Positions 25,968 to 40,242 of a DNA stretch of 40,961 bases are shown one piece after another. The stretch comes from a virus. A program made the position numbers and the translations under genes. The notes under the pieces were generated by a model, which saw only the letters and a program-made list of their open reading frames with translations, made no database searches and was not told where the DNA came from. Positions within the stretch are counted from its first letter, which is position 1; each line of letters starts with the position of its first letter. The stretch lies in the IMG/VR virus record IMGVR_UViG_3300028612_001738, positions 1 through 40,961 of that record; one strand, given 5' to 3'.

Positions 25968-26027
25968 TATCTTACGTCCCGTAAGATACGAAAGCTTCCT
26001 GTGGACTCCAAGTCTTTTTGCATAAGT
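25968..26027 (-). promoter_or_regulatory. Long intergenic repeat element A (with 9-bp hairpin)
   Basis: Copy A of the recurring element, upstream of the DUF932 gene. Coding-strand landmarks are CTTATGC, ACTTGGAGTCC and TTTCGTAT. Unlike other copies it holds a perfect inverted repeat TATCTTACG-TCC-CGTAAGATA (25968-25988) in place of the usual CGTATATTNACG block. It could be an operator or hairpin variant of the common promoter. Confidence 0.5.
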
Positions 26028-26033
26028 TTTCAA

Positions 26034-26198
26034 TTATTTTTGTACTAAACCAAAGGCGCTTGAGATTTCATTTATAAATTCATCCAATTCTTCATCATTT
26101 AAGTGTTTAAAGGTAGTGGCTCTTAATCTATCGATTACTTTACGGGCTTCTTTATAACCTTTCCCGGCATTTATATTGTTAAAAGTTGAATTTCCCAT
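26034..26198 (-). CDS. 54-residue protein, unknown
   Basis: Read directly from the DNA: ATG at 26198, TAA at 26034. The protein starts MGNSTFNNINAGKGYKEARK and ends EFINEISSAFGLVQK. It is helical and charged with no motif. It follows an ATATTTATAA motif by 5 nt and lies between the zinc-ribbon microprotein gene and element A. Confidence 0.6.
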   Translation of the reverse strand: MGNSTFNNINAGKGYKEARKVIDRLRATTFKHLNDEELDEFINEISSAFGLVQK

Positions 26199-26203
26199 TT
26201 TAT

Positions 26204-26213
26204 TTATAAATAT
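26204..26213 (-). promoter_or_regulatory. ATATTTATAA motif, copy 6
   Basis: Minus-strand ATATTTATAA, 5 nt before the ATG at 26198, overlapping the stop region of the zinc-ribbon microprotein gene. Confidence 0.35.
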
Positions 26214-26299
26214 TAAATATCTTTTTTACAAATTGAACATTTACCATTTTTTACTAATGTCATGGTGCAACATTTTTTACAAAATTTAAATTTGCTCAT
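26213..26299 (-). CDS. 28-residue zinc-ribbon microprotein
   Basis: Read directly from the DNA: ATG at 26299. The sequence contains two CxxC knuckles, FCKKC...KCSICKK, spaced 10 residues apart, a complete four-Cys zinc ribbon in 28 residues. It starts 7 nt after the RadA-like ATPase gene. Such minimal zinc ribbons in phages often bind RNA polymerase or nucleic acid, but the role here is not shown. Confidence 0.6.
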   Translation of the reverse strand: MSKFKFCKKCCTMTLVKNGKCSICKKDI

Positions 26300-26305
26300 A
26301 ATTTA

Positions 26306-27094
26306 TTAAATTTGTTCGTAACTATAAAATACACTATCTTGATAAAATGAAAAACACAACTTAAAATCTTTATCACAATCTCTATTTTTACTAAATTGTA
26401 ATGTTCTTTCTGTTTTATCTTTATTTACTTCCACGTGACACATTGCATCGGTCATATGTTTTAATCTATTTGAACCTGAAAATTCCCCACCTTTTGTGAC
26501 TTGTTGAATGTTAATAAAAGTAGTATAATAATCTCCTTTATTTTTTCCACCTTTAACTTTATCTTGAAGGCTTAAAAACCAAGATTCTGCAACTCCCATT
26601 GGTACTTTGTAAGTATCTTTATACATTCCTAAAACTTCGGCAATGCTATCAATTACTATTACATCATAACCATCATTAAAAATATATTCAATTACTTCTT
26701 TTACATTTTCTCTATGATGTTTTAAAAATAAGGTTTCAACACATTTAAATTTGGGCATTCTTTTACAATATTTGTAAAAACCAATTTCATCCATCTCTCC
26801 ACTTACAAATAAACATTTGTAACCTTTTTTAGTTAATGAAGAAACAATATCTAATGCAATTGTAGTTTTCCCACTTCCCGGACCACCTACTAATAACATA
26901 TTTGTGGCAGGCATTAATCCACCTTCTGTAGACAAAATAATATCAATCTCTCTACTTGTTTTAAGAGGGATAAATATACTTTTATCAAATGATAATTCTG
27001 ATGCTCTTATTAGTTTAATTGAAGAAGGGTTAAATTTTTTAGTAATAATTACTTTTTTTGGGCGACCTCTACCTCTTTTTTTAACTATTGACAT
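26306..27094 (-). CDS. RadA/UvsX-class RecA-fold ATPase with N-terminal AT-hook
   Basis: 262 residues. Walker A is GGPGSGKTT (70-78), Walker B DVIVIDS (144-150). The later motif FINIQQVTKGGEFSGSNRLK followed by HMTDAM matches the RadA 'HVTK-G-LEHMVD' region. N-terminal residues 6-14 (KRGRGRPKK) form an AT-hook. The protein is short for UvsX, and lacks the RadA zinc finger and Lon-like domain. Likely roles are recombination or branch processing during replication. Element B lies upstream. The gene is divergent from the plus-strand island. Confidence 0.75.
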   Translation of the reverse strand: MSIVKKRGRGRPKKVIITKKFNPSSIKLIRASELSFDKSIFIPLKTSREIDIILSTEGGLMPATNMLLVGGPGSGKTTIALDIVSSLTKKGYKCLFVSGEMDEIGFYKYCKRMPKFKCVETLFLKHHRENVKEVIEYIFNDGYDVIVIDSIAEVLGMYKDTYKVPMGVAESWFLSLQDKVKGGKNKGDYYTTFINIQQVTKGGEFSGSNRLKHMTDAMCHVEVNKDKTERTLQFSKNRDCDKDFKLCFSFYQDSVFYSYEQI

Positions 27095-27120
27095 AACCTT
27101 TATTGTATTTTAATTATTAA

Positions 27121-27173
27121 TATAACGTGAATATACGCAATATATTTCAGGTATCCTAGTTTTTCCGCATAAG
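27121..27173 (-). promoter_or_regulatory. Long intergenic repeat element B
   Basis: Copy B, upstream of the RadA-like ATPase. Coding strand: CTTATGCGG, ACTAGGATACC, CGTATATTCACG, then an A-rich leader ending CAATAAAGGTTATG. It lies in the divergent region between minus- and plus-strand genes. Confidence 0.55.
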
Positions 27174-27192
27174 TTTTTAAAAATTATTTGGA

Positions 27193-27201
27193 ATATTTAT
27201 A
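27193..27201 (+). promoter_or_regulatory. ATATTTATA motif on plus strand
   Basis: ATATTTATA on the plus strand, 22 nt before the ATG of the CAP-domain gene. Here the motif has the plus orientation, matching the gene, which supports it being a strand-specific promoter element. Confidence 0.4.
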
Positions 27202-27223
27202 TATTAATTGTATATTATGTCAT

Positions 27224-27670
27224 ATGAAATTATTTCAATGTTTCAAACGAAAAAAAATAGAATGGATTAAACCTGTCCCATTAATAATACCTTTTGAAGT
27301 AACTGAAGATACATTGTATTTAATAGATTTAATAAATGAATATAGAAATGAAAATAATTTAAATGTTTTACCTTTAAATAATTATTTAATGTCTTTATCT
27401 AAACATAGAACAAATTATTATTTAGAAAAAAACATAAAAGATGGAAACTTACATGCAGGTTTATTAGCCCATACGGAAAAATATTTGGAATCCCAGTTTA
27501 GTAAAATAGGGGAAATTACTATGTATAAATACAGTGATGCTTTTAATAAATTTATGCAAAGCAAACCTCACAATAAATCAATATTGGGAAATTGGGATGA
27601 AATAGGGGGTTCTATCCAATTTAATAAATATAATCACCCCTATTATAATATAACATTTGGTAAAATATAA
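27224..27670 (+). CDS. CAP/SCP-domain (CRISP/PR-1-like) protein
   Basis: 148 residues from the ATG at 27224 (a TTG 36 nt earlier is in frame but less likely). The CAP fold is recognisable: LYLIDLINEYRNENNLN, LNNYLMSLSKHRTNYY (H61), E97 in IGEITM, SDAFNKFMQSKPHNKSI (H117), and the terminal strand YYNITFG. H61, E97 and H117 would form the CAP cavity. No clear signal peptide. CAP proteins are usually secreted and act on membranes, peptides or lipids, and are unusual in phages. Confidence 0.7.
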   Translation: MKLFQCFKRKKIEWIKPVPLIIPFEVTEDTLYLIDLINEYRNENNLNVLPLNNYLMSLSKHRTNYYLEKNIKDGNLHAGLLAHTEKYLESQFSKIGEITMYKYSDAFNKFMQSKPHNKSILGNWDEIGGSIQFNKYNHPYYNITFGKI

Positions 27671-27673
27671 AAA

Positions 27674-27868
27674 ATGGAAGAATTAACATTAATTGAACAA
27701 GCTTTAGATAAAGCCACATTAAAGGGATCGTATAATTTAAAAGAAGCCACACTTGTGGGAAATAATTTTTATGGAATTATAAATTTATTTGAAACAATGA
27801 AACAGGATGATTTAGATAAAACCGAAAAAATCATCTCATTAGAAAATAAACTTAAAAAAAAATCATAG
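27674..27868 (+). CDS. Small helical protein, unknown
   Basis: 64 residues, charged and helical, with a Lys-rich C-terminus (ISLENKLKKKS). It follows the CAP-domain gene by 3 nt, so they are probably one operon. No family recognised. Confidence 0.5.
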   Translation: MEELTLIEQALDKATLKGSYNLKEATLVGNNFYGIINLFETMKQDDLDKTEKIISLENKLKKKS

Positions 27869-27871
27869 AAA

Positions 27872-28019
27872 ATGTTAAAAAAAATAGGAAGTATTGAGAA
27901 CCTACAACACTCATATAGAGTAATTTGATAAATCAACTGATGGAATCCTCCCTAATGGAGATTTTCAAGACGAGGTGTTTAAAATAAAAGAGAATATTTG
28001 TATAAAAGAGGTTATATGA
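27872..28019 (+). pseudogene. Possible frame-shifted small gene upstream of the glycosyltransferase
   Basis: From ATG 27872 the frame gives MLKKIGSIENLQHSYRVI and stops. A +1 shift at the stop continues as DKSTDGILPNGDFQDEVFKI and IKENICIKEVI to a TGA that overlaps the glycosyltransferase ATG (ATGA). The two parts read as one about 48-residue protein coupled to the next gene. It may be a real frameshift, sequence error, or chance. Confidence 0.35.
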
Positions 28020-28651
28020 AATATGCATTTTTAGTTCCAATATACAACCATATTAGTGGTAGGTTATTCAAACGTTTTTTGAATTTACAAGAATGGTGCC
28101 CACAATTAGATGGTAAAATTTATACCGTAGTAGGTAGAACACATGTAGATGCACGAAATTGGTTATGTACTAATGGGGGAGGTTTTTATAATCCTCTAAG
28201 TTTAATCAATAAAGTAGATTATTTAATATGGATTGATGCAGATCAAGACTTTAATTATACTGAGTTAAATACATTATTAAAATATGATTCACAATTTTGT
28301 GCAGGATGGTATGTAAAAGATTTAAGTGGTATTGGGATGATAGCAGATTGGGATGAACATAATTTTAAGAAAACGGGCACAATGAAATTTTGGCATAGTG
28401 ATGATATAGTTAAACAAAAAAAACCATTTAAAGTAGATTATTGTGGGTTTGGTTTTACTAAAGTATCTACTAATATATTAAAAGAAATGGAATATCCATA
28501 TTTTAGACAGAGAGTAGTTGAAATAGGAAAATATAAAGAAAATGTATCAGAAGATGCTACATTTTGTTTAGACGTAAAAGATAAATTAGGTATAAAACCA
28601 ACAATATTACCAGAATTAAGAATTAGACATTTAAAGGAATTATATGTTTAA
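28016..28651 (+). CDS. GT-A-fold glycosyltransferase
   Basis: 211 residues from the ATG at 28016. The start MKYAFLVPIYN is the nucleotide-sugar-binding first strand. The metal-binding DxD lies in DYLIWIDADQDF (D74, D76), RNWL precedes it, and the acceptor-side block is FKVDYCGFGFTKVS with a later SEDATFCLDVKD. It should transfer a sugar from a nucleotide donor; the acceptor is not readable. Neighbours are a CAP protein, a PspC protein and a decayed glycosyltransferase fragment, so cell-surface or virion glycan modification is plausible. Confidence 0.75.
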   Translation: MKYAFLVPIYNHISGRLFKRFLNLQEWCPQLDGKIYTVVGRTHVDARNWLCTNGGGFYNPLSLINKVDYLIWIDADQDFNYTELNTLLKYDSQFCAGWYVKDLSGIGMIADWDEHNFKKTGTMKFWHSDDIVKQKKPFKVDYCGFGFTKVSTNILKEMEYPYFRQRVVEIGKYKENVSEDATFCLDVKDKLGIKPTILPELRIRHLKELYV

Positions 28652-28684
28652 TATATAGAAACTATGGAAGTGTGGTAAGAATAA

Positions 28685-28765
28685 ATAAAATATGGTAGTA
28701 AAAGAGATCAATTAAGTTTTGATTATATGGTTTGGAAGAGTAATTTTAAATTTAAATATATATAA
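28685..28765 (+). pseudogene. C-terminal relic of a glycosyltransferase-like gene
   Basis: A 26-codon open stretch with no start encodes KYGSKRDQLSFDYMVWK. The (G)S-RDQLSF-Y--WK signature ends many capsule glycosyltransferase-like (DUF616-type) proteins (memory). The upstream part of such a gene is absent. It sits right after the intact glycosyltransferase, so this locus has probably exchanged glycosyltransferase genes. Confidence 0.45.
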
Positions 28766-28783
28766 TTATTAAAAATTAATAAC

Positions 28784-29125
28784 ATGAAAAAATTTTATAG
28801 AAGTAGTAAAAATTCAAAAATAGGTGGGGTTTGTGAAGGATTAGCTAAACTCACAAACACAGATCCTATTTTTTGGAGGGTAGTTTTTATTGCCTTCTTA
28901 TTTACAATTATTCCTGCATTTTTAATTTATATATTATTATGGATTGCTATTCCTTTAAAAATAGATGAAAATGAAGAAATACCCATAATCTTAAAAGATA
29001 TAAAAGAAGAAAATATAAAATTTGAAATAGAAGAACTTCAATATAAGTTAGATAATGATTATAATGCAATTGAAGTAATTAATGAATTAAAATCTCAAAT
29101 AAGGGCATTAAATAAAAAATTATGA
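28784..29125 (+). CDS. PspC-domain membrane protein
   Basis: 113 residues. The PspC domain covers residues 1-60: KKFYRSSKNSKIGGVCEGLA, then DPIFWRVVFI and a membrane segment (about 31-57) ending LLWIAIPL. The C-terminal half is a charged helix with coiled-coil pattern. PspC proteins sense or respond to envelope stress in bacteria. A phage copy could act on host membrane integrity. Its TGA overlaps the ATG of a zinc microprotein (ATGA). Confidence 0.8.
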   Translation: MKKFYRSSKNSKIGGVCEGLAKLTNTDPIFWRVVFIAFLFTIIPAFLIYILLWIAIPLKIDENEEIPIILKDIKEENIKFEIEELQYKLDNDYNAIEVINELKSQIRALNKKL

Positions 29126-29268
29126 AATGCCCTCATTCAATCTTAACAAAGATAAATCATTGGTGGTTTAACCTTAAATGTGGGGGCTGCAATAAAAGAT
29201 TTAGAAAACTCCCCAAAGGAAATTGGGGAACAATGGAATTAATTAAAAAAGAAACTAAACGAAAATAA
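29122..29268 (+). CDS. 48-residue zinc-binding microprotein coupled to PspC
   Basis: Read directly from the DNA: ATG overlapping the PspC stop. The sequence starts MKCPHSILTK and contains LKCGGCNKRFRKL, giving a CxxH/CxxC-type zinc site, and a basic C-terminus (ETKRK). The 4-nt overlap implies translational coupling with PspC, so the two may work together. Function unknown. Confidence 0.55.
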   Translation: MKCPHSILTKINHWWFNLKCGGCNKRFRKLPKGNWGTMELIKKETKRK

Positions 29269-29386
29269 GTTAGAAACATTAATATGTATATAATTTGTAT
29301 TTCCATCACACACCCCACCAAAAATAATCCGTATATATAGGTTAGGTATGATAATATATATTTAAATAATAAGTTAAAATCCACAT

Positions 29387-29599
29387 ATGAAAACTAAAAT
29401 ACTAACCGCTGAATATAAATTAATTAGAGAAGGGGAACATACAAAAATGGAGATAATAAAACCCTTATTAAATGTAGTTGAAGATTTTATAAAAGATTTA
29501 CCATCTTCAGACAATGTTACCCAAATAACAGTACATAATGATCAATGTTTAATATTATATAAAAAACGATTAATACAGACCGGATTTTTGAGAAAATGA
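29387..29599 (+). CDS. Small protein, unknown
   Basis: 70 residues, mixed alpha/beta, ending LILYKKRLIQTGFLRK. It is preceded by an AT-rich gap with ATATATATTTAAATAATAAG. No family recognised. It is followed by a duplicated gene cassette. Confidence 0.5.
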   Translation: MKTKILTAEYKLIREGEHTKMEIIKPLLNVVEDFIKDLPSSDNVTQITVHNDQCLILYKKRLIQTGFLRK

Positions 29600-29615
29600 G
29601 ATATATCTTTCTTTA

Positions 29616-29659
29616 ATGAATTTAAATTTTAATGTTATGAAAAATTCAACAACAAAATT
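29616..29659 (+). repeat. 44-bp leader repeat, copy 1
   Basis: The 44 nt starting ATGAATTTAAATTTTAATG recur at 29899-29942 with one mismatch. The repeat spans the putative translation leader and the first codons of two small genes. A shorter relative (TTAATGTTATGGAAAATTT) lies at 30132, so it marks a small gene family. Confidence 0.8.
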
Positions 29660-29858
29660 ATGTGTATATGAATCACCCCAAGGTTGGTACTTTGCAGAAT
29701 CATTCTGGGACTACTGGGCAGAAGAATTTGCACCTGAAGTAGAGCATGAATTAACAGACTGTATTTACTATTCTACAAAAAAGTTAGCTTTACTTGCTTT
29801 AAAATTATTTAAGCAACAAAATATAAGTCTTATCGACGAATCAGACTTACCTTTTTAA
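29637..29858 (+). CDS. Small duplicated-family protein 1
   Basis: 73 residues from the second Met (MKNSTTKLC). The first ATG (29616) is in frame, but the third family copy lacks it, so the second Met is preferred. Trp/Tyr-rich centre (QGWYFAESFWDYWAEEF), and the C-terminus has STKKLALLALKLFKQQN, which recurs in the decayed copy at 30344. Followed by a strong terminator. Function unknown. Confidence 0.55.
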   Translation: MKNSTTKLCVYESPQGWYFAESFWDYWAEEFAPEVEHELTDCIYYSTKKLALLALKLFKQQNISLIDESDLPF

Positions 29859-29862
29859 TCTT

Positions 29863-29885
29863 AAAGGGGACTTTGTCCCCTTTTT
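29863..29885 (+). terminator. Rho-independent terminator
   Basis: AAAGGGGAC-TTT-GTCCCCTTT forms a perfect 9-bp stem with a 3-nt loop, followed by TT on the plus strand: the best terminator in the window. It closes the transcript of the 29637 gene. Confidence 0.85.
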
Positions 29886-29898
29886 AATTAAATAATAA

Positions 29899-29942
29899 AT
29901 GAATTTAAATTTTAATGTTATGAAAAATTTAACAACAAAATT
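29899..29942 (+). repeat. 44-bp leader repeat, copy 2
   Basis: Second copy of the leader repeat, 43 of 44 positions identical to 29616-29659. It lies immediately after the terminator and upstream of the second small gene. Confidence 0.8.
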
Positions 29943-30135
29943 TAGTGTATTGAAAACAATCGATGAACCCATTAAAGAAGGTGATTGGTATTTATACAAC
30001 TCTAATAATGATTCTAAAAAAACTAAATGGGTATTACTTAAAGCTAAAAAAGTACTTAATGATGGGTTATATGAATATATTGATACCCATGTACATATTT
30101 GGTGTAAAAAAATACTAACAACTAATAAATCTTAA
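29920..30135 (+). CDS. Small duplicated-family protein 2
   Basis: 71 residues from the second Met (MKNLTTKFS). It shares only its first residues with protein 1. Then KEGDWYLYNSNNDSKKTKW and a His-rich IDTHVHIWCKK near the end. The stop lies just before the related leader of the next gene. No family recognised. Confidence 0.5.
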   Translation: MKNLTTKFSVLKTIDEPIKEGDWYLYNSNNDSKKTKWVLLKAKKVLNDGLYEYIDTHVHIWCKKILTTNKS

Positions 30136-30139
30136 TGTT

Positions 30140-30343
30140 ATGGAAAATTTAAAAAATTTAAAAGCTCATAAATTATTACAAATGATTAAAGATTCTCTTA
30201 ATTCTCTAAAATATGGTGATAATTTAATTATAATAGTTACACAATCCGGTGGTACGATAGATGTAAATGGGGATTGGGTTGTGACTCCTTCGATTGAATA
30301 TAATGCCGAATTTGAAATTCAATGTATTAGACCTGAGGGTTAA
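30140..30343 (+). CDS. Small duplicated-family protein 3, ending at an in-frame TAA
   Basis: 67 residues, starting MENLKNLKAHKLLQ after a shortened copy of the family leader. It ends IQCIRPEG at a TAA (30341-30343). The same frame continues after the stop with family-type sequence (see the next entry), so the gene may be interrupted by a nonsense change. Confidence 0.5.
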   Translation: MENLKNLKAHKLLQMIKDSLNSLKYGDNLIIIVTQSGGTIDVNGDWVVTPSIEYNAEFEIQCIRPEG

Positions 30344-30505
30344 AAACAGTTTACTATTAATACTAAAAAACAAGCTTTACTTGCTTTAAAAATATTTACT
30401 AATCAATCTTCTCCTTATTGGTTGGGAGAACAGGAAATAATATATAAATATATAGATGTATATTACAAAAGAATCTTCCGAATTTCTTCTTTCAATATTA
30501 CCTGA
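30344..30505 (+). pseudogene. In-frame continuation of the 30140 gene after a stop
   Basis: Directly after the TAA the same frame encodes KQFTINTKKQALLALKIFTN, matching STKKLALLALKLFKQ of protein 1. The frame then runs to TGA at 30503-30505. This is either the lost C-terminus of the 30140 gene or a fused relic. Stop read-through cannot be excluded. Confidence 0.55.
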
Positions 30506-30578
30506 ATGGACCACAAAAGATGTTAAAGGGGTAAGTAATACTTTTTATGGGACTGGTAGTCAAGAAGGGGATAATTAA
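30456..30578 (+). CDS. 40-residue protein, unknown
   Basis: Read directly from the DNA, ATG at 30456, overlapping the relic frame above. Starts MYITKESSEFLLSILPEW; ends GTGSQEGDN. No motif. An AT-rich leader (ATATATAAATATATAG) precedes it. Moderate support only. Confidence 0.4.
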   Translation: MYITKESSEFLLSILPEWTTKDVKGVSNTFYGTGSQEGDN

Positions 30579-30587
30579 TAGAAATTA

Positions 30588-30704
30588 ATGAAATATTTTA
30601 TGGAAAATCAAGATGAAAAGAATTTTTTAAAAGGAATGATTTTAATTTTATTAATAATATTTGGGTGGTGGATAATACATGAATTATTTTCATTGTTTGT
30701 TTAA
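30588..30704 (+). CDS. 38-residue single-pass membrane microprotein
   Basis: ATG at 30588 (an internal ATG at 30600 is also possible). After a charged start (ENQDEKNFLKG) there is a clear membrane segment (MILILLIIFGWWIIHELFSL). This is the last gene of the plus-strand island. A small membrane toxin, antiholin or regulator is possible; function not shown. Confidence 0.5.
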   Translation: MKYFMENQDEKNFLKGMILILLIIFGWWIIHELFSLFV

Positions 30705-30951: not shown

Positions 30952-30959
30952 ACCTTTAT

Positions 30960-32548: not shown

Positions 32549-32896
32549 CTACTTGAAGGCAATCCTTAACATTGAAGGTGGAGCACTAATTATTGTTTTT
32601 CCGTTTTGGACCTTAATTTTTTTATTATTTATTTTAATGACATTAAATACTTGACCATTATTATACTTTTTATGATCAATAGTAACCATATCCCCTACAG
32701 TAAAATCACTTATAGTTGGTAAGTTTTTTTCAAATTCTGCAGCTCCTTCACGGGCTGTGATTTTTACTCGAAATCCTTCATCATCATACGTAATTGCTCC
32801 CAAAGACATATTAATTCCATGTTTGTTCTCTAGTGCCTGTACAGCTTCAGTGAAATCTTTTCTAAATTCTGTAAAACCTTGTTGGTTGTAATTCAT
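32549..32896 (-). CDS. Small phage protein with a KOW-like C-terminal region
   Basis: 115 residues. N-terminal helix (FTEFRKDFTEAVQALENKHG) followed by INMSLGAITYDDEGFRVKI, a pattern seen in hypothetical phage proteins. The C-terminus (FTVGDMVTIDHKKYNNGQVF, NVIKINNKKIKVQN) looks like a KOW-type beta barrel. Element C lies upstream. Function unknown; nucleic-acid or ribosome contact is possible. Confidence 0.55.
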   Translation of the reverse strand: MNYNQQGFTEFRKDFTEAVQALENKHGINMSLGAITYDDEGFRVKITAREGAAEFEKNLPTISDFTVGDMVTIDHKKYNNGQVFNVIKINNKKIKVQNGKTIISAPPSMLRIAFK

Positions 32897-32915
32897 AAGA
32901 CCTTTATTTATTTTA

Positions 32916-32969
32916 ATTATACCGTCAATATACGAAGGCTCCCTTAGGGAGCCTAGCCTCTTCGCATAA
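32916..32969 (-). promoter_or_regulatory. Long intergenic repeat element C (8-bp hairpin)
   Basis: Copy C: coding strand TTTATGCGAAG, GCTAGG, a perfect hairpin AGGCTCCC-TAA-GGGAGCCT (32936-32954), CGTATATTGACGGTATAAT and leader ending AAATAAAGGTCTTATG for the 32896 gene. The hairpin sits ahead of the CGTATATTGACG block and could terminate upstream transcripts. Confidence 0.65.
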
Positions 32970-32983
32970 ATCTTTAATTTATT

Positions 32984-33148
32984 TTATAAATCCAAATTAA
33001 CTTCCAGTTGACTAATCATATCTACACATTTTATGCAAATGAGTTTTGAATCATGATTACAATACTCGGAAAAAGATTTTTTATCTTCCGTATACTTCTC
33101 ATTAACTGTTTTCATACAACATCCGCATACTATATATTTTGTTTTCAT
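32984..33148 (-). CDS. 54-residue Cys-rich (zinc-finger-like) protein
   Basis: Read directly from the DNA. Cysteines are clustered: VCGCC near residue 8-11, EYCNH at 29-32, LICIKC at 37-41. They suggest a zinc-binding fold. It starts straight after element D and its leader TATAATTAAAATAAA. An early-expressed small zinc protein; binding partner unknown. Confidence 0.6.
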   Translation of the reverse strand: MKTKYIVCGCCMKTVNEKYTEDKKSFSEYCNHDSKLICIKCVDMISQLEVNLDL

Positions 33149-33156
33149 TTTATTTT

Positions 33157-33211
33157 AATTATACCGTCAATATACGAAGGGTATCTTGGGTAGCCTAGCC
33201 TCTTCGCATAA
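33157..33211 (-). promoter_or_regulatory. Long intergenic repeat element D
   Basis: Copy D, upstream of the 33148 gene. Same landmarks as C (TTTATGCGAAG, GCTAGGC, CGTATATTGACGGTATAAT), but the hairpin arms have changed to GGCTACC / GGGTATC-type sequence that still partly pairs, a sign of conservation of structure rather than sequence. Confidence 0.6.
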
Positions 33212-33215
33212 ATCT

Positions 33216-33692
33216 TTAATTTATTTTATAAGCACTATAAACACTTCGGGTTAATCTTATTGAATCCCTTGGATCTCCCATTATCTCTCCATCCACTATT
33301 GCAAAGGCATGCCCTTTAACTGTAATAAGATAATTACCCTCAGAAAATATTTTAATAAAATCTTTAACTTTATAAGAAACTTGTATTTTACGTTTACATT
33401 TACAAAACTTTTTCTTTTTCTCACTCCAAATCGTAATTTTACTATTTTGTGTGCGTGTTAATACTTTAGTACCATAATTTCCCTTTTTACCTAATTGTTT
33501 AATTTTTTTACCAAATGCTTGTTGAATGTGAGGTAAACGAAGTTGAATCCATGTCCCACAATATTTTTCCCTATTTAATTTAATTCTACAAAAATTATGT
33601 GCCTTATTATAATTTACACCAAAAGCTGCCGATACAGCTCTAACTACACAATCATTTGTTTCTCCCTCTTTTAAATAATCATTTTCTGACAT
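33216..33692 (-). CDS. C39-like cysteine-peptidase candidate
   Basis: 158 residues. A possible catalytic triad is seen: C15 in ETNDCVVRAVSAAFG, H128 in VKGHAFAIVDG and D140 in MGDPRD. The order Cys, His, Asp and spacing match papain-like/C39-fold peptidases and related phage proteins. A Cys-Lys-rich insertion (KKKFCKCKRK) lies at residues 93-101. Element E is its promoter region, so it is early. It may cleave a host or phage protein; substrate unknown. Confidence 0.55.
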   Translation of the reverse strand: MSENDYLKEGETNDCVVRAVSAAFGVNYNKAHNFCRIKLNREKYCGTWIQLRLPHIQQAFGKKIKQLGKKGNYGTKVLTRTQNSKITIWSEKKKKFCKCKRKIQVSYKVKDFIKIFSEGNYLITVKGHAFAIVDGEIMGDPRDSIRLTRSVYSAYKIN

Positions 33693-33705
33693 ATAACCTT
33701 TATTT

Positions 33706-33761
33706 AATTATGCCGTCAATATACGCATTTTTCCGGTGGACTCCTAGTTTTTTGTGCGGTA
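33706..33761 (-). promoter_or_regulatory. Long intergenic repeat element E
   Basis: Copy E, ahead of the peptidase-like gene. Coding strand ACTAGGAGTCCACCGG, GCGTATATTGACGGCATAAT, then AATAAAGGTTATATG. No strong hairpin. A more divergent CTTATGCG-type block (ACCGCAC). Confidence 0.5.
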
Positions 33762-34093
33762 TTATTTAATATTTATTGAATTCTCAGTAAAATGTGGTAA
33801 ATTTGTGAATAATACATAAGTCAGGAGAGGTAGTTTATATAAAATTGTGAATTCCGCAATTCTTCATATATATTTTGGAGTATTAAAAAATAGGTTGGGT
33901 GGGTGGGGGAAGGGGTTATCACCAACTCTACCCTAACCTTATCTTAATTTACCATACGCCCTAACACTTTGCGCTATATTTTAAAGTTTTTGTGGGTTGG
34001 CTACACTTTATCAAGGTTGCCTCACCATATATAAATTAATACAAACATACATATACACATTGAGTTCTGATAATTCTATCATCTTAATATTTT
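33762..34093. other. Non-coding region with G-quadruplex-like run
   Basis: About 330 nt between the peptidase-like gene and the PIG-L gene without a convincing gene. It contains an inverted repeat GAATT-CCGC-AATTC (about 33849-33862) and a G-rich run GGGTGGGTGGGGGAAGGGG (33897-33915), exceptional in such an AT-rich sequence. A short 24-codon frame at 34010-34081 is weak. It could be an origin, a regulatory region or a junction. Confidence 0.4.
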
Positions 34094-34597
34094 TTATTTA
34101 TTTACCTTTGTTATTATTTCATACCAAGGACTAAACCAATCAAGTATTTCTCTTTGACTTCCATATACCTTTAATAAATTTCTTTTCTTAATTAATATAT
34201 TAATATCTAATCTTTTTTTATGTTTATCAAATTGCCATAATATGTCTGGTCTTAAATGGTTTAATATTTCGTGAAGTGCTCGATGTCGTGGATGTCCATA
34301 TTCACCTACCTTATTATGTGTAACTATTTTTACCCAATCTCGTTCTCGTAATACTCTCAATAATTCATAGATAAGTTTCTCTCTATTATAATCTTCTCTA
34401 TCTTTATAACCTGTCCAATGTTCATATTCTTTTATTCCTATAAACTTCATAGATGCTTTAAATTCTTTTCTTCTAATCTTATTATGGTACTCATCTACTA
34501 CTATAACTTTATATTCATCTGAATGTGTCAACAGTTCAGCACCACCAAATAGTGCTTCATCATCCGGGTGTGATGTAATCATTAATTTGTCAATCAC
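34094..34597 (-). CDS. PIG-L/LmbE-family amidohydrolase (N-acetylglucosaminyl deacetylase-like)
   Basis: 167 residues. The PIG-L zinc motif is clear: HPDDEALFGGAELL (H10, D12, D13) and, later, EYGHPRHRALHEIL (H101, H104), the third ligand. The family removes the acetyl group from GlcNAc-containing conjugates. Short relative to many members but core complete. It overlaps nagB-like by 8 nt and is downstream of it, so both are made together. Confidence 0.85.
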   Translation of the reverse strand: MIDKLMITSHPDDEALFGGAELLTHSDEYKVIVVDEYHNKIRRKEFKASMKFIGIKEYEHWTGYKDREDYNREKLIYELLRVLRERDWVKIVTHNKVGEYGHPRHRALHEILNHLRPDILWQFDKHKKRLDINILIKKRNLLKVYGSQREILDWFSPWYEIITKVNK

Positions 34598-35273
34598 AAT
34601 AGAATATCTTTATATTATCATGTCTTTGTAATATTGATGCAGGAACATCTTCAGTTACTTCACCATGCATAGCCACATTTAATATATTCCATTTATGGGC
34701 TCCATTAGCAATTAATACTATCTTCTTTGATTCCATTATAGTTTCTAATCCCATAGTAATTGCTTGTTTAGGTACATCATCGATTACATCAAAAAACCTT
34801 GAGTTATCTTTAATAGTTTGTTCAGATAAATCCACTACTCTTGTTCTTGATTTAAATGAAGAACCTGGCTCGTTAAATGCTATATGACCATTAGTACCTA
34901 TTCCTAATATACATAAATCAATTCCCTTATTTCCAGGGTATTCTTTTATCTTATCTTCAAACGCTTCAGTAGGGCGGAATGGAAAATGGCAATGGTCAGG
35001 ATAGATATTAATTTTATCAAATAAATTCTCTCTCATATAACTTTGATAACTTTGTGGGTGATCTATATTCATAAGATAAACATCAAGATTAAATGTTATA
35101 ACAGATTTCCAATCTAATTCTCTATTGACAAGTTCTTCATATATGCCAAGTGGTGTATCACCAGTTGGGAGAGCTAGTTTAGATTGGGGATATTCTTTGA
35201 TTTGAGACTCAATTATATCAGCTACAGTTAAGCTTAGTTCTTTATAACCTTTATCTAATACATTGACCTTCAT
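34590..35273 (-). CDS. nagB: Glucosamine-6-phosphate deaminase-like protein
   Basis: 227 residues, close to the 242-residue B. subtilis type. Phosphate loop PTGDTP (36-41), N-L-D with D64 (general base) in TFNLDVYL, HPQSYQSYM, and the signature ILGIGTNGHIAFNEPGSSF with H130 and E135. The usual Asp-Glu pair after NLD is D-V here. It should interconvert GlcN6P with Fru6P plus ammonia, in either direction depending on conditions. Paired with PIG-L, it points to an aminosugar pathway encoded by the phage. Leader AAATAAAGGTTATAGTAATG. Confidence 0.85.
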   Translation of the reverse strand: MKVNVLDKGYKELSLTVADIIESQIKEYPQSKLALPTGDTPLGIYEELVNRELDWKSVITFNLDVYLMNIDHPQSYQSYMRENLFDKINIYPDHCHFPFRPTEAFEDKIKEYPGNKGIDLCILGIGTNGHIAFNEPGSSFKSRTRVVDLSEQTIKDNSRFFDVIDDVPKQAITMGLETIMESKKIVLIANGAHKWNILNVAMHGEVTEDVPASILQRHDNIKIFYCD

Positions 35274-35564: not shown

Positions 35565-35947
35565 TCATCAGAATATTTCATAACTAATTCGTCATTTAAT
35601 CTTATAATTGGTTCTTGAAAACTATCTAAATATCCATCTAAATAAGCACCGAATAATACCCTTATTGTTTGAATTGATGTTTCTTTTCCAAATCTATCTT
35701 CTAATTCTTGATAACTTATATCTAAATTTTTAGGGAAAAAATCAGTTACGATAGGCATAAGTTTAGCTTTTATTGATGGATCTCCTGCTTTATCATCAAA
35801 TAGACTTTTCATATTTACATATTTACCTACAATTGATTTAGGAATACCCCTACCTGACTCTTCTTCTTTAAATAAGCGACGCTTAGCCGTAGGTCCTACT
35901 TTGTTTTCATTTATATATTTATTGAATTCTTTTTCGTAATCTTCCAT
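35561..35947 (-). CDS. Small protein sharing the GPTAKRRLFKE motif
   Basis: 128 residues. Starts MEDYEKEFNKYINENKVGPT, followed by the motif at residues 18-28 and an acidic helix. The rest is an unrecognised alpha-helical domain. It shares the motif with the downstream protein, with which it overlaps by 4 nt. The common motif could be a targeting or processing signal. Confidence 0.6.
   Translation of the reverse strand: MEDYEKEFNKYINENKVGPTAKRRLFKEEESGRGIPKSIVGKYVNMKSLFDDKAGDPSIKAKLMPIVTDFFPKNLDISYQELEDRFGKETSIQTIRVLFGAYLDGYLDSFQEPIIRLNDELVMKYSDE
35863..35896 (-). repeat. 34-bp exact direct repeat, copy 2
   Basis: Second copy of the coding repeat, within the 128-residue protein gene. See copy 1. 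Confidence 0.85.
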
Positions 35948-35998
35948 GGTGTAAATTGTTTTAGTTTATTTTTGTTATAGTTAAGTGGTTATTTGTTA

Positions 35999-36169
35999 TT
36001 ATGATTTTTTGTCTTTCTCCTCCAAAATTTGTGGTGTTGCCCAATCATCATCTCCATAGGCATTTATTTCTATTTTTGGGTGGGGAGAATGTTTTTTGAT
36101 ACAAATAAAACCTTGTTTCTTCCAACAAATGTTCCTTAAATATTTTTTTATGTAATAAAATGTTATCAT
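35999..36169 (-). CDS. 56-residue protein, unknown
   Basis: Read directly from the DNA: ATG at 36169. Basic N-terminal half with two Cys (ICWKKQGFICIKKHSPH) and an acidic tail (GDDDWATPQILEEKDKKS). No motif. Stop at 35999, 52 nt before the next gene. Confidence 0.45.
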   Translation of the reverse strand: MITFYYIKKYLRNICWKKQGFICIKKHSPHPKIEINAYGDDDWATPQILEEKDKKS

Positions 36170-36199
36170 TATAATTCTTTTACAGACTCCCTACATACC

Positions 36200-36322
36200 T
36201 TAAAAGGATTTATTACGACGTTGTCCCCTCCATTTAACCCCTTTGGTATTTCCTAAACCTTTTAATTTTTTAACCCTCCGGTTATAATCATTTCGTTCGG
36301 TATCTATTTGATTATTTTTCAT
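36200..36322 (-). CDS. 40-residue basic protein, possibly a frame-shifted 61-residue gene
   Basis: ATG at 36322 encodes MKNNQIDTERNDYNRRVKKL plus a basic end (KWRGQRRNKSF). The same frame is open upstream as DDIIRLLIRLKTENNKIEI to just after an ATG at 36386, but that ATG is out of frame by one base. Element H lies just upstream of that ATG, so the intended start may be there. The gene would then be broken by one inserted base, or sequence error. Confidence 0.45.
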   Translation of the reverse strand: MKNNQIDTERNDYNRRVKKLKGLGNTKGVKWRGQRRNKSF

Positions 36323-36408
36323 CTTAATTTCTATTTTATTATTTTCTGTTTTTAAACGTATTAGTAATCTAATTATATCATCTCATGATTAGGATTTTAC
36401 CTAATAAA

Positions 36409-36450
36409 TTATACGTTAATATACGTAAAATTTTGGGGGTATTCTAATAT
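36409..36450 (-). promoter_or_regulatory. Long intergenic repeat element H (degenerate)
   Basis: Most diverged copy: coding strand AATATTAGAATACCCCC, then TACGTATATTAACGTATAAT. It overlaps the end of the upstream 34-residue ORF and precedes the 36386 ATG. Confidence 0.4.
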
Positions 36451-36548
36451 TTTTTAATATATCTTGTACGAGGAAGGGGTTGTTTTTTAAACGTTTTTAA
36501 CCATTCCTTTAATTGTAAATACATTTGTTTACTTGAATTTTTACTCAT
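36444..36548 (-). CDS. 34-residue basic protein, unknown
   Basis: Read directly from the DNA: ATG at 36548, TAG at 36444 inside element H. Encodes MSKNSSKQMYLQLKEWLKTF plus a basic end (RTRYIKKY). No motif. Leader is A-rich. Confidence 0.4.
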   Translation of the reverse strand: MSKNSSKQMYLQLKEWLKTFKKQPLPRTRYIKKY

Positions 36549-36614
36549 TTTTTAATCAATAATTAATTTTAGTTTTAGTTATTTTAATTTCAGACCATCC
36601 ACTAACTATCATTT

Positions 36615-36938
36615 TTAGCTTCTATTAATATTTTTTATTTTAAATCCAAAATTTTCTATTTTAAATCCTAAATATTGTCCTAAACTGCCTCCAATAAAAT
36701 AGGCTACAATAGGCTGCCACAACAAATTCATTATTGCATCTATTCCTAAAAATATAGATGCTAACCAACATACTCCAATTATATTACCTGTTAAGATTGA
36801 AGCTAATACCTTTTTTTCAGCAGTATAAATTACATTTATAGTTCTAAATAATATAAATACCATTTGTAATATAAAAATAATTATAGCTGATGTCCAAGGG
36901 TTAATTATTAAATCATTCATTATAATACTAATTATCAT
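36615..36938 (-). CDS. Membrane protein, DUF5698/UPF0316-like
   Basis: 107 residues (start at 36938 or at the internal ATG 36920). Two to three membrane segments: AIIIFILQMVFILFRTINVI, VLASILTGNIIGVCWLASIF, and a shorter hydrophobic YFIGGSLGQYLGF. The R-T-I-x-V-x-Y-T-A sequence followed by GxxxGxxxG-type turns recalls DUF5698 proteins. Function unknown. Confidence 0.5.
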   Translation of the reverse strand: MIISIIMNDLIINPWTSAIIIFILQMVFILFRTINVIYTAEKKVLASILTGNIIGVCWLASIFLGIDAIMNLLWQPIVAYFIGGSLGQYLGFKIENFGFKIKNINRS

Positions 36939-36997
36939 TATTTAAACCTAGTCTTAGAGCCGTTGTGCTATACACACCTTCTTTTAGACTAATATGT

Positions 36998-37240
36998 TCA
37001 CTTATTTTTTTTACTATATTTTCTACCTTTACGACTTTTACCTTTTAAAGCCCCTGGTATATCACCAATCTGGTTACCAACTTCTTTTATAGCTTTTGCT
37101 ACATCATTTAATTCAGTGACTGTTAATTTATATCTTTTTTGTATTTCTTTTACTGTAGCAATTGCTTTTTCGTCTACAGAGGTTTTACCCCAAACGTATT
37201 TCCATGCATCTTTGCAATATTGTTTTGTTCTTTTCCACAT
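36998..37240 (-). CDS. Small basic helical protein, unknown
   Basis: 80 residues; helical, with ELNDVAKAIKEVGNQIGDIP and a very basic tail (KGKSRKGRKYSKKNK). Similar proteins occur in marine phage contigs (memory). The tail suggests nucleic-acid or capsid contact. The ATATTTATAA motif lies upstream at 37282. Confidence 0.5.
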   Translation of the reverse strand: MWKRTKQYCKDAWKYVWGKTSVDEKAIATVKEIQKRYKLTVTELNDVAKAIKEVGNQIGDIPGALKGKSRKGRKYSKKNK

Positions 37241-37281
37241 AATGTTATTATTTATTGTTAAACTTATTTTTATTTATTTTT

Positions 37282-37291
37282 TTATAAATAT
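37282..37291 (-). promoter_or_regulatory. ATATTTATAA motif, copy 7
   Basis: Minus-strand ATATTTATAA, 41 nt upstream of the ATG at 37240. The longest spacing among the copies. Confidence 0.35.
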
Positions 37292-37333
37292 GATATTTCT
37301 TTATCTAAATATTTATCTAGTGACTTCATAATT

Positions 37334-37564
37334 TTATAATAATAAATCATTTTTTTCAAGAAAAAGCCATCCTCTTTCCAACCAAAGACGTATTGTAACA
37401 TCCTCAATCTTATCCATAACATCAGCCCCATCATGTCTTTTTGAAGCAATAAAAGCAATTATCATGTCCGCGTAGTCTCTTGCTTTATCTTTTTCTCCTA
37501 GTTTTATATGTTCCTTTGCTTTATCAAAGCAATGATGTAATACTTGTCTTTTATATTTTACCAT
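37334..37564 (-). CDS. Small helical protein, unknown
   Basis: 76 residues, helical and charged, with HHCFDKAKEHIKLGEKDKARD and an acidic centre (DVMDKIEDVTIRLWLE). Tightly packed with the 58-residue gene (stop adjoins start). No motif. Confidence 0.5.
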   Translation of the reverse strand: MVKYKRQVLHHCFDKAKEHIKLGEKDKARDYADMIIAFIASKRHDGADVMDKIEDVTIRLWLERGWLFLEKNDLLL

Positions 37565-37741
37565 TTATTTTTTAAAAGATTTAGGTATTTTTTCTTCTTT
37601 AAGATTGTAATATTCATCCAAAATAGAACTCAACACCCTTATTTCAATTTGAGCTTGTTCCAATTCCACATAATTTAAAGGCATACTATTTTTATATTTT
37701 TCTTCTAAACTTATTATTTTATTAATTATTATATCTTCCAT
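37565..37741 (-). CDS. 58-residue helical protein, unknown
   Basis: Read directly from the DNA: ATG at 37741. Helical and acidic then basic (ISLEEKYKNSM; KIPKSFKK). It abuts both neighbours (3 nt to the upstream stop), so it is a real operon member. Confidence 0.5.
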   Translation of the reverse strand: MEDIIINKIISLEEKYKNSMPLNYVELEQAQIEIRVLSSILDEYYNLKEEKIPKSFKK

Positions 37742-37744
37742 AGC

Positions 37745-38029
37745 TTAATCTATTAATTCCTCTATATTAATATTATATTCTTCCATAAGTTTATTAAATT
37801 CATTAAATACTAAATCAACTACTTTAGGGTTTGATAAATATATTATTTCTTTATAATTTCCATTATCATCTGTAAAGTTGTTCATCTCCTGTATTAACAT
37901 CAATATCTTCTTTTTTGAATTTAATTGGAATTCAAATAATACACAAGCCATATCTAAAGCTTTAATACATCTTCTATGATCTTTTATATCTTCAAGTTCA
38001 TTTAAATCAAATTTTAATGTTGTTTTCAT
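37745..38029 (-). CDS. Small phage protein, unknown
   Basis: 94 residues. Starts KTTLKFDLNELEDIKDHRRC; the layout (MKTTL-F-L with a following helix containing AxDMACVLFEF) resembles a family of short phage proteins with unknown role (memory). Overlaps the SWIM-domain gene by 4 nt. Confidence 0.55.
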   Translation of the reverse strand: MKTTLKFDLNELEDIKDHRRCIKALDMACVLFEFQLNSKKKILMLIQEMNNFTDDNGNYKEIIYLSNPKVVDLVFNEFNKLMEEYNINIEELID

Positions 38030-38445
38030 TTTAATTGTTTAATATGTTTACAATTTCCTCTACTTATCCAAGCTCCAGGACAAGTACAAGTATAAGTTAT
38101 TTTGTTACCTCTTGTAAATCTTTTAGTAATATAAATTTTATTACTTGAACTTGATTTATTTTCAAATTTTTCGATACTTTTCTTAATAATTGGTTTAATC
38201 CATTCAATATCAGATAATTCAGTTTTAGGATGAACTTTTACCCAACCGGGCATTAAATATTTTTGATTGCTTAAAATTACTAAAGTTGGGGAGATGATAT
38301 TTGTAAACTTATATTTAAAACATCTAACTCCAATGTATCCTCCCAACCCTTTAGGGTTTATTCCAAAACTTGTAGTAGGATTGTATATAATCCTGGAACG
38401 GATATTACCATGTTTATTTAGATTTGAAAATTCGTGTAAAGGCAT
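38026..38445 (-). CDS. SWIM zinc-finger protein
   Basis: 139 residues. The C-terminus has the SWIM CxC-Xn-CxH pattern: TYTCTCPGAWISRGNCKHIK. SWIM fingers bind DNA, RNA or protein. Upstream, GFGINPKGLGGYIG and KYKFTNIISP form the rest of a small fold with no known enzyme motif. Likely a nucleic-acid-binding accessory protein. Overlaps the next gene by 4 nt. Confidence 0.7.
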   Translation of the reverse strand: MPLHEFSNLNKHGNIRSRIIYNPTTSFGINPKGLGGYIGVRCFKYKFTNIISPTLVILSNQKYLMPGWVKVHPKTELSDIEWIKPIIKKSIEKFENKSSSSNKIYITKRFTRGNKITYTCTCPGAWISRGNCKHIKQLK

Positions 38446-38514
38446 TTTAATATATTATTATTTTAAATTATCCTACTTTATAATTACTCACAAAGTTAAA
38501 ATGAGTATTTTATC

Positions 38515-38787
38515 TTAGTTTTTCACCTTATTGAATTTTTTATTTAGGAAATTATACATTATTGAAAATATTAATCCCCCAATAAAAGCATCACAAAAGC
38601 CAAAAAACAACCCAATTATACTGCCCATGGGAGTGGCGGCAAACCCATAATATACGCTCCCGAAAAGCTCAATAAAGGGTAGGCCAAAATCAAACATCCA
38701 TCCAAGCATTCCAGTTATAAACATGCCTATACCCCAGGTCATGCCTAAGGATAGAGCTACTGATAAAGTATGTATTTGCTTATTCAT
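38515..38787 (-). CDS. Holin-like membrane protein
   Basis: 90 residues with two hydrophobic segments separated by a turn: SLGMTWGIGMFITGMLGWMF (10-29) and IIGLFFGFCDAFIGGLIFSI (57-76), a basic C-terminus. It resembles small 'bacteriophage holin' proteins with TWG and GFxDxFIGGL motifs (memory). A holin would form pores for the endolysin. It overlaps the 59-residue gene by 8 nt. Confidence 0.5.
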   Translation of the reverse strand: MNKQIHTLSVALSLGMTWGIGMFITGMLGWMFDFGLPFIELFGSVYYGFAATPMGSIIGLFFGFCDAFIGGLIFSIMYNFLNKKFNKVKN

Positions 38788-38959
38788 AATAGTTACTCAT
38801 CCAAAGTGTTAATAATTCATTTGCTTCTTTATTACTTACTTCAGAAAAATTTTTAATAATAAAAGAAGCAGCTCCAAACATATTAATTTCACCTGATTCT
38901 CTTAAAGCATTTAAATACTTAAATACTTTTTTTTCTAATTTAGTTATTTTTCTTACCAT
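38780..38959 (-). CDS. 59-residue protein, unknown
   Basis: Read directly from the DNA: ATG at 38959. Helical with YLNALRESGEINMFGAASFI, a motif I have seen in short phage proteins (RESG-xNMFGA). The gene overlaps the holin-like gene by 8 nt. Confidence 0.55.
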   Translation of the reverse strand: MVRKITKLEKKVFKYLNALRESGEINMFGAASFIIKNFSEVSNKEANELLTLWMSNYYE

Positions 38960-38968
38960 GGATTGAAA

Positions 38969-39112
38969 TTACGGGTTTTTTATATCATCAAACTCAACCT
39001 GATTGATTAATTTTTCTAAATTTTTATGAGCTATTGAAAATTTTTTATCTTCCATATCTAAAAGTATATCCATTAACTTCAAATAAAGCACCTCTTTAGT
39101 TTCATTATCCAT
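38969..39112 (-). CDS. 47-residue acidic protein, unknown
   Basis: ATG at 39112 shares one base with the stop of the 95-residue gene (TAATG). Acidic, helical (KLMDILLDMEDKKFSIAHKN). Stop 10 nt from the next gene start. Confidence 0.5.
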   Translation of the reverse strand: MDNETKEVLYLKLMDILLDMEDKKFSIAHKNLEKLINQVEFDDIKNP

Positions 39113-39399
39113 TATGACCATGTTTTTACCAGTTCATCTATATCTTCTCTACTTTGCCATCCAATTGGGTCCATTTCAAACTCACCCTCTTTATTAAATA
39201 TAGCTACTTCGAATGATGATACACTATCTGGTTTTTTTAATTCACCAGTGAAATCTAATCCACCAGGTATACTGTATAAACCCTCACCTGCTGTTATTGA
39301 TAATTCTCTTCCATTATTCAGCATTAATAATCCTTGAATTACACTTTTGATTCTCTGTTTCTTCCAAGTGATGTCTTTAAATGTTTTTAATTTACTCAT
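39112..39399 (-). CDS. Small phage protein, unknown
   Basis: 95 residues. Contains ELSITAGEGLYSIPGG and a FEVAIFNKEGEF hairpin with C-terminal EDIDELVKTW. A pattern common in phage hypothetical proteins of unknown role (memory). Element F and the AATAAAGGTC leader lie upstream, so probably early. Confidence 0.5.
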   Translation of the reverse strand: MSKLKTFKDITWKKQRIKSVIQGLLMLNNGRELSITAGEGLYSIPGGLDFTGELKKPDSVSSFEVAIFNKEGEFEMDPIGWQSREDIDELVKTWS

Positions 39400-39424
39400 G
39401 ACCTTTATTTATTTAATCATTAAT

Positions 39425-39476
39425 ACAACATAAATGTACGAATCTTTATTCAGGTATCCTAGTCTTTCATGCATTA
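39425..39476 (-). promoter_or_regulatory. Long intergenic repeat element F
   Basis: Copy F, ahead of the 39399 gene. Coding strand AATGCATGAAAG, ACTAGGATACC, TTCGTACATTTATG, then AATAAATAAAGGTCATG. The CGTATATTNACG block is degenerate. Confidence 0.5.
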
Positions 39477-39546
39477 TTTTAATTAATTGCATTTAATTTT
39501 TTCAATTATAGCCTTACAATTACTACATTGTTTTAATTTATATAAC

Positions 39547-39924
39547 TTATAACTTATATTTTTCTTTATATTCTTTAATAAATTTTGTTCCTAATCCTAT
39601 CTCCAAATAATCTGCATTTTCAGGTACTCCTGCTTGTTTATTAGTTATAATATCATCAATGTTCTTATTTTTGAATACTTTCATTTTAACTTTTGTATTC
39701 TTTCTTGGAGTTGAATAAACCAATACAATAGGATGATTACTATATTTTGATTTAGGGTCAAGTATAGGTTTATTAGGTTTACCTATTGCTTTAATAAGTA
39801 CTTTGTAAGGAGCAGTATTATGTTTTTTCCTATCAAAATGCCATGTAGTCTCTTCTCCTTCAACTTTAAATCTAATTGGTACTTCTACATTATCTTTTGG
39901 CCTACCTCTATGTTCTGTTTTCAT
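39547..39924 (-). CDS. Small protein with N-terminal AT-hook-like motif
   Basis: 125 residues. Starts MKTEHRGRPKDN, an RGRP core as in AT-hooks. The rest is a mixed fold (VPIRFKVEGEETTWHFDRKK; PIVLVYSTPRKNTKVKM). A DNA-binding role is plausible because of the AT-rich genome. Unrecognised family. Confidence 0.5.
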   Translation of the reverse strand: MKTEHRGRPKDNVEVPIRFKVEGEETTWHFDRKKHNTAPYKVLIKAIGKPNKPILDPKSKYSNHPIVLVYSTPRKNTKVKMKVFKNKNIDDIITNKQAGVPENADYLEIGLGTKFIKEYKEKYKL

Positions 39925-39948
39925 AAGGGTTGTTTTAAGTTAATAATT

Positions 39949-40167
39949 TTATTTGTTAGTTTTAATTGAATATGTAGCATAATCACATAACGGATTTCTT
40001 ACCTTTCTGTTCAATTCTAATTCATCAAACTGACCCATTGAACAGTCAAAAGCTATATTCTCAATCTCACTACCTATTTTTAATGAAATCTTTCCATATT
40101 CGGAGTTTTCAATTCCATTTTGAATTTGATTCATTATAGTTATGGTTCTTATGATATTTGTTTTCAT
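39949..40167 (-). CDS. Small protein, unknown
   Basis: 72 residues. Helix then strand (IMNQIQNGIENSEYGKISLK), two Cys (DCSMGQF, PLCDYA). Element G lies upstream. Confidence 0.5.
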   Translation of the reverse strand: MKTNIIRTITIMNQIQNGIENSEYGKISLKIGSEIENIAFDCSMGQFDELELNRKVRNPLCDYATYSIKTNK

Positions 40168-40190
40168 AATATTTGTTTTAACTAATTACT

Positions 40191-40242
40191 TATACGTGAA
40201 TATACGAAGGCTCCCTCAGGGAGCCTAGTTTCTTCGCATAAG
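40191..40242 (-). promoter_or_regulatory. Long intergenic repeat element G (8-bp hairpin)
   Basis: Copy G, ahead of the 40167 gene. Coding strand CTTATGCGAAG, ACTAGG, perfect hairpin AGGCTCCC-TGA-GGGAGCCT (40208-40226), TTCGTATATTCACG. Nearly identical to copy C, with only the loop and flanks changed. Confidence 0.65.

Follow-up and report, generated by a model that had tools for sequence, protein, structure and literature searches.

What does a short intergenic sequence do when it recurs, in fixed layout, at eight gene boundaries of an uncultured tailed phage? Virus record IMGVR_UViG_3300028612_001738, analysed here over its full 40,961 bases (the window; G+C 27%), carries such an element in eight copies, A to H. 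We propose that the element is a compact gene-boundary module, a promoter in every copy whose bases double, in a minority, as the terminator of the upstream gene; we give this reading a probability of about 0.7.

The repeated element and its recurrence in viral contigs

All eight copies claimed in a sequence-only reading of the window were found. They lie on the minus strand in intergenic positions, and the distances from block to block are constant. The layout is TTATGCG-N5-ACTAGGnTnCC-N12-CGTATATTnACG, then an A-rich leader and then ATG. The copies, and the two strong hairpins within them, are as follows.

25942..26030, minus strand: copy A and leader, 5' of the DUF932 gene at 25060-25941
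27095..27177, minus strand: copy B and leader, 5' of the RadA/KaiC-like ATPase gene at 26306-27094; upstream neighbour on the opposite strand; no hairpin
32897..32974, minus strand: copy C and leader, 5' of the gene at 32549-32896; perfect hairpin
32936..32954, minus strand: hairpin of copy C, 8 pairs and a 3-base loop, between -33 and -7
33149..33216, minus strand: copy D and short leader, 5' of a 54-residue gene at 32984-33148; weak fold
33693..33765, minus strand: copy E and leader, 5' of the gene at 33216-33692; no hairpin
36400..36465, minus strand: copy F, the most degenerate copy
39400..39480, minus strand: copy G and leader, 5' of the gene at 39112-39399; no hairpin
40168..40246, minus strand: copy H and leader, 5' of the gene at 39949-40167; perfect hairpin
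40208..40226, minus strand: hairpin of copy H, 8 pairs and a 3-base loop; listed by the terminator scan for the plus strand only

The TTATGCG block keeps its spacing and is degenerate in E, F and G; no clear gene start lies within 100 bases of F. Positions 1-24.5 kb of the window, with the structural, primase and exonuclease genes, hold no copy.

A profile built from the eight copies recovered exactly those eight in the window, which is a circular test. A second, independent profile, whose training set was other viral contigs, found the same eight with scores of 26-61 and nothing in the reversed window, together with one weak additional match at 24571 (score 12.7). Exact CGTATATTnACG matches number six in the window, every one of them a copy; with up to two mismatches there are 15 against 6.4 expected, a count reached in 0 of 100 shuffles. 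TTATGCGAA by itself shows no enrichment: with two mismatches, 148 matches were counted where 162 were expected. The window aligns end to end, at 99.9% identity or more, with contig IMGVR_UViG_3300023192_003818 (106.6 kb; hereafter G001), in which the independent profile gave 13 matches, every one minus-strand, against none in the reversed control; the further matches are at 14349, 58247, 85323, 90374 and 90963. None of the 13 was scored inside a called open reading frame (ORF), so the copies do sit between genes, as had been claimed, and are not equally frequent in coding sequence. A profile scan of 12 records, three of them represented by one 20-kb stretch each, gave 90 matches and none in the controls, some of the 90 being on the opposite strand or within called ORFs.

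The element is widespread among viral contigs. In contigs that carry a relative of the ATPase gene, GGnnnCC-N12..14-GTAnnTTnAC matched 34 times in 9 of 17 records and the reversed pattern never; the other eight records had no match. The gap was 13 in all 34 matches, though 12-14 was permitted, and one match, at position 12747 of contig G002, looked unlike the remaining 33. GGnTACC-N12-CGTATnTTTAC was found in at least 120 stretches of viral contigs. The consensus in these relatives, drawn from 130 instances (118 once near-duplicates were removed), is TTTGGnTACC-N12-CGTATaTTTAC immediately 5' of ATG, and the columns that the pattern left free show AAAGAnTTnCGCGnAAAAATTT 5' of GG, CGAGATAGGGTT in the spacer and GGnGTAAATAA 3' of the -7 region. 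In 24 records selected for bearing the pattern, 55 matches were counted and none to its reverse. With a looser pattern, 181 of 196 matches were followed by an ATG-initiated ORF of at least 30 codons, 4-79 bases past the expected start, and 15 were not; the 196 were drawn from the window, the 120 stretches and those of G001, G002 and contig G012, window matches being counted twice. The largest clusters of downstream genes have 24, 18, 12, 10, 9 and 7 members. The representative of the cluster of 24 is a DUF932 protein and that of the cluster of 18 has a weak KaiC/RecA-like match; the genes behind copies B, C and E of the window belong to the clusters of 18, 12 and 7, respectively. The DUF932 gene behind copy A is outside this set, because the pattern used does not match copy A. 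Leaders 3' of some copies in relatives (loci L150, L166, L114 and L148) contain small inverted repeats such as GTTGATAATTAAGTCAAC, which are possible 5'-leader hairpins.

Some searches marked the limits of the family. Used as a pattern, CCTAGNNTCTTCGCATAA hit 18 viral stretches, and besides the near-identical contig the other 17 were in an unrelated context without the -7 block. In cellular genomes the 16-base pattern occurred in at least 119 stretches, which by our estimate is about the chance level in 257 Gb; among the matches listed, these looked like coding sequence by eye, many in one same conserved gene, and they were rejected as elements. Cellulophaga phage phi17:2, scanned over 48 of its 145 kb, gave one match against one in the control. 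Flavobacterium phage immuto, the closest isolate found, gave 13 profile matches and none in the reversed control; their scores were low (12-24), and four (or three, counting those clearly coding) were scored inside called ORFs.

Likeness to the Bacteroidetes promoter

According to a study of Flavobacterium johnsoniae (PMC6847099), the Bacteroidetes primary-sigma promoter, first described as -33 TTTG / -7 TAnnTTTG, was later revised to TAHHTTTG at -7; T-12, A-11, T-8, T-7, T-6 and G-5 are nearly invariant in F. johnsoniae and the -33 motif is weak. Transcripts there start 4-5 bases 3' of the -7 box, with a mean leader of 33 bases (PMC6847099). The element shares the layout, the distance and the TAnnTT core: TAHHTT is kept in all eight window copies as TATATT, TACATT or TATCTT. 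It also shares the short leader before ATG, for which a Shine-Dalgarno sequence is not needed, and, in relatives, the -33 TTTG, with TTTGG in most related-contig copies (T at -2 in 94% and at -1 in 91%). It differs in having A for G at -5 and a variable -6 (T 22, C 17, G 6 and A 4 in the 49 copies unconstrained by the scan pattern), in adding a conserved GnTACC, a CG before the -7 box and the upstream block, and, in the window, in having CTAGG or similar where TTTGG is expected in seven of eight copies, copy A reading CTTGG. Judged by sequence, the element thus resembles the host promoter but would not be classed as a plain member. Standard sigma-70 promoters were not enriched (105 against 115.6 in shuffles).

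Sequences in the early region of immuto, not annotated there as promoters, have an equal layout and distance and a CGTATATTTAG-type -7 region, and several contain nested hairpins and T-runs; GTTG replaces TTTGG in them, and most are without the GnTACC block.

Position, strand, constant spacing, the Bacteroidetes -33/-7 likeness and the recurrence 5' of start codons in viral contigs together support the promoter part of the sequence-only reading. The TATAAT block singled out in it is present and falls on the predicted transcript start rather than at -10, the -7 box being TATATTnA within CGTATATTnACG. Gene content alone suggests that the downstream genes may be early.

Hairpins within the promoter core

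Perfect hairpin arms had been claimed for C and G. Copy C has them; G does not (-1.5 kcal/mol), and the second perfect hairpin is that of H. The C and H folds reach -16.4 kcal/mol each, with z-scores of -2.6 and -3.8, and only these two of the eight copies have a GC-rich hairpin. In D the arms are changed with pairing partly kept, as had been noted: the fold is weaker over 36 bases (-9.4 kcal/mol, z -1.4) and amounts to -0.6 over 26 bases. All other window copies fold at -3.2 kcal/mol or weaker. In the first of two gene callings, a same-strand stop precedes the GG of A, C, D and H within 30 bases, the distance to a stop is 87-349 bases for E, F and G, and the neighbour of B is on the opposite strand; in the second calling a 34-residue ORF ends at F. 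A perfect hairpin is thus present in two of the four close copies and in none of the four others. Terminator-like sites are not enriched in the window (4 against 5.2 in shuffles), and Rfam at the gathering threshold returned one tRNA only.

The relation to the upstream gene was examined in 272 deduplicated copies (336 before), from which copies inside ORFs of at least 80 codons and copies near stretch ends had first been dropped. In 192 of them (close copies) a same-strand ORF ends within 60 bases; the remaining 80 are the others. Bases -14 to +20 around GG were folded, and the p-values are guides only, since ORF calls are mechanical and the copies are related. A minimum free energy (MFE) of -10 or lower occurred in 42 of 192 close copies against 6 of 80 others (p 0.005), and one of -8 or lower in 55 against 12 (p 0.02); when the upstream ORF had to be 60 codons or longer, the counts were 37/153 and 6/80 (p 0.0014). 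Flanking windows lacked such an excess at -8 or lower (downstream 7 against 2, upstream 5 against 14). Stems of at least 10 pairs are in excess at these tail-to-head junctions: 20 of 192 close copies have one, where column shuffling gave a mean of 1.4 (maximum 5 in 60 shuffles), compared with 3 of 80 other copies and a shuffled mean of 0.6. When 3' arms were swapped between copies, the count fell in most of the registers tested (e.g., 9 against 1.1 and 15 against 5.2), with no clear fall in some (8 against 5.0). The stems vary widely in sequence and register among copies. Upstream ORFs often end inside the element, and 4, 6, 14, 19 and 20 bases are among the commonest distances from GG.

Spacer runs of at least five T associate with hairpins (10/17 against 17/255, p 2e-7), and 10 of the 272 copies have both such a run and an MFE of -9 or lower. 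Some relatives have textbook intrinsic terminators inside the promoter core, with the U-run touching the -7 box. Examples are given below.

L175: CGCGGTAACATTTGGTTACCGCG then nine T
L169: CACCGGAGGCTTGGCTTCCGGTG then TTTTT
L124: AGGGAGCTTGGCTACCCAGGCTCCCT then TT
Copies in immuto and in contig G010: UUCG or GAAA loops

The likeness to intrinsic (rho-independent) terminators lies in this GC hairpin followed by a T-run in some relatives; the difference is that the hairpin is nested in the -33/-7 core of the following promoter and that the window hairpins are without a T-run. The claimed terminator function is supported for the family, where GC hairpins precede 5-9 T inside the promoter in some relatives, and only partly for the window, where two of eight copies have a strong hairpin. 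Because the stem is perfect but the U-run poor, termination at C and H is likely weak or helped, as far as the sequence tells.

A proposed gene-boundary module

We propose that each copy would be the promoter of the gene or small operon directly 3' of it. RNA polymerase, most likely that of the host with its main sigma factor, would read the -33 block (TTTGGnTACC in relatives, mostly CTAGGnTnCC in the window) and the -7 block (CGTATATTnAC), perhaps with a phage protein helping, because the -7 box deviates at -6 and -5 from the host consensus. Transcripts would start about 5 bases past the -7 box and carry a short leader rich in A. A minority of copies, mostly those directly after a same-strand gene, would have a second role: their core hairpin, with a U-run in some relatives, would end the upstream transcript, so that one unit would stop and its successor start within a shared 40-50 bases.

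Several observations weigh against this reading. The host G at -5 is mostly absent, the base being A in 41, G in 7 and C in 1 of the same 49 unconstrained copies. The majority of copies have no strong hairpin. The hairpins in the window lack a proper U-run, with UUCGUAUAUU 3' of the stem, and the terminator scan gave no terminator-like minus-strand site at C or H. A and D closely follow a stop yet have no strong hairpin, and the G001 copy at 14349 is strongly hairpinned at 169 bases from the nearest called stop. A smaller earlier test gave a weak result, with p 0.07 when all 67 copies that have a neighbour were included and p 0.01 once the 14 copies inside called ORFs were set aside. Of the 26 copies whose neighbour is on the opposite strand, 3 have an MFE of -8 or lower.

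The dyad may instead be a DNA operator, with a phage activator or repressor binding GGnnnCC and its palindromic extension near -30 and with the RNA hairpins incidental. T4 MotA, which acts near -30 at middle promoters, is a model for such an activator; those promoters likewise combine a block near -30, here possibly a phage one, with a sigma -10/-7 box, although the sequences differ. GGnnnCC is indeed retained in most copies of the window virus, hairpin present or not, and a -7 box without the host G at -5 is what a promoter in need of help would show. An operator, however, leaves unexplained the variety of stems in sequence and register, the UUCG and GAAA loops, the enrichment after same-strand stops and the association with T-runs, and we consider it rather unlikely. 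The same variety of registers, and the many copies without a strong hairpin, would suit plain host-type promoters in which two separate signals were in some copies squeezed together with no designed module. Hairpins in the fixed promoter frame far above column shuffles, with no excess in flanking windows, speak against such crowding, which we regard as unlikely.

Very improbable, finally, are hairpin promoters of the kind read by the virion RNA polymerase of phage N4. That system is brought to mind by the 3-base loops, by the placement of the hairpin just 5' of the expected start and by a gene in the window for a 2553-residue protein, but only a minority of copies have the hairpin, and the large protein has no PHROG family match and no DxDxD motif, the polymerase having been sought by family scan and that motif only.

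A phage sigma factor was considered as the reader of the element and rejected: the candidate family, weakly similar to sigma-70 region 2 and present in 11 of the 13 sets examined, including the window virus (22335-23249, minus strand), also occurs in contig G014, whose scanned 20 kb hold no copy. The window protein and the G014 member have an insertion of about 60 residues inside region 2. Two of nine members match a PHROG late sigma factor (E 0.015) and three of nine match Sigma70_r2 (the first member below the cut-off); there was no PDB match, and the window copy has no Pfam sigma match. We tentatively take the family as a late sigma factor on these sequence matches. ATATTTATAATA stands 5' of the gene starts at 4087, 19387 and 22308 (minus strand) in the structural block, three of the 25 starts viewed in positions 1-26 kb of the window, and these boxes are a possible candidate late promoter. 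A DksA/TraR zinc finger was found in 1 of 12 records.

The window primase and DUF932 protein are 46% and 40% identical to their counterparts in immuto, and this likeness together with the promoter type indicates that the host is probably a member of the Bacteroidetes. Positions 20000-40961 of the window had no DNA match in the phage collection. Other window genes encode an exonuclease, baseplate- and tail-like proteins and the KaiC/RecA-like ATPase; judged by eye, the 2553-residue protein (7212-14873, minus strand) looks like a component of the tail or baseplate. Outside the window, G001 encodes GroEL, a DNA polymerase, a UvsX-like recombinase and ribonucleotide reductase. Around window position 29,650 it has about 200 additional bases; this difference falls in the region 29616-30343 (plus strand), where a repeated leader, TAAATTTTAATGTTATGAAAAATT, precedes three small ORFs that run opposite to most genes. 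A phage-encoded PspC-domain membrane-stress protein (28784-29125, plus strand) and a PIG-L deacetylase gene beside a glucosamine-6-phosphate isomerase-like gene (34094-35273, minus strand) were also observed.

Promoter and terminator would each be of a known kind, and terminator/promoter overlaps are known in other phages, as in the gene VIII/III region of filamentous phages. A phage -33/-7 core doubling as an intrinsic terminator was not found in the open-licence literature searched by title and start of abstract. Intrinsic termination need not remove E. coli polymerase from the DNA: the enzyme can remain bound and start again at promoters close by (PMC6978380). A polymerase freeing the upstream transcript at the hairpin might similarly stay at the next -7 box and restart, so that single-gene units would be served by a handed-on polymerase; we consider such a relay quite improbable.

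The motif offers a tool for locating where genes start and for delimiting transcription units across a large number of contigs from uncultured phages, and its hairpinned copies would be natural cases in which one short sequence has to act as terminator and promoter core together. It makes testable both the restart, on the next gene, of a polymerase that has stayed at a terminator and the function of Bacteroidetes phage promoters without the host G at -5.

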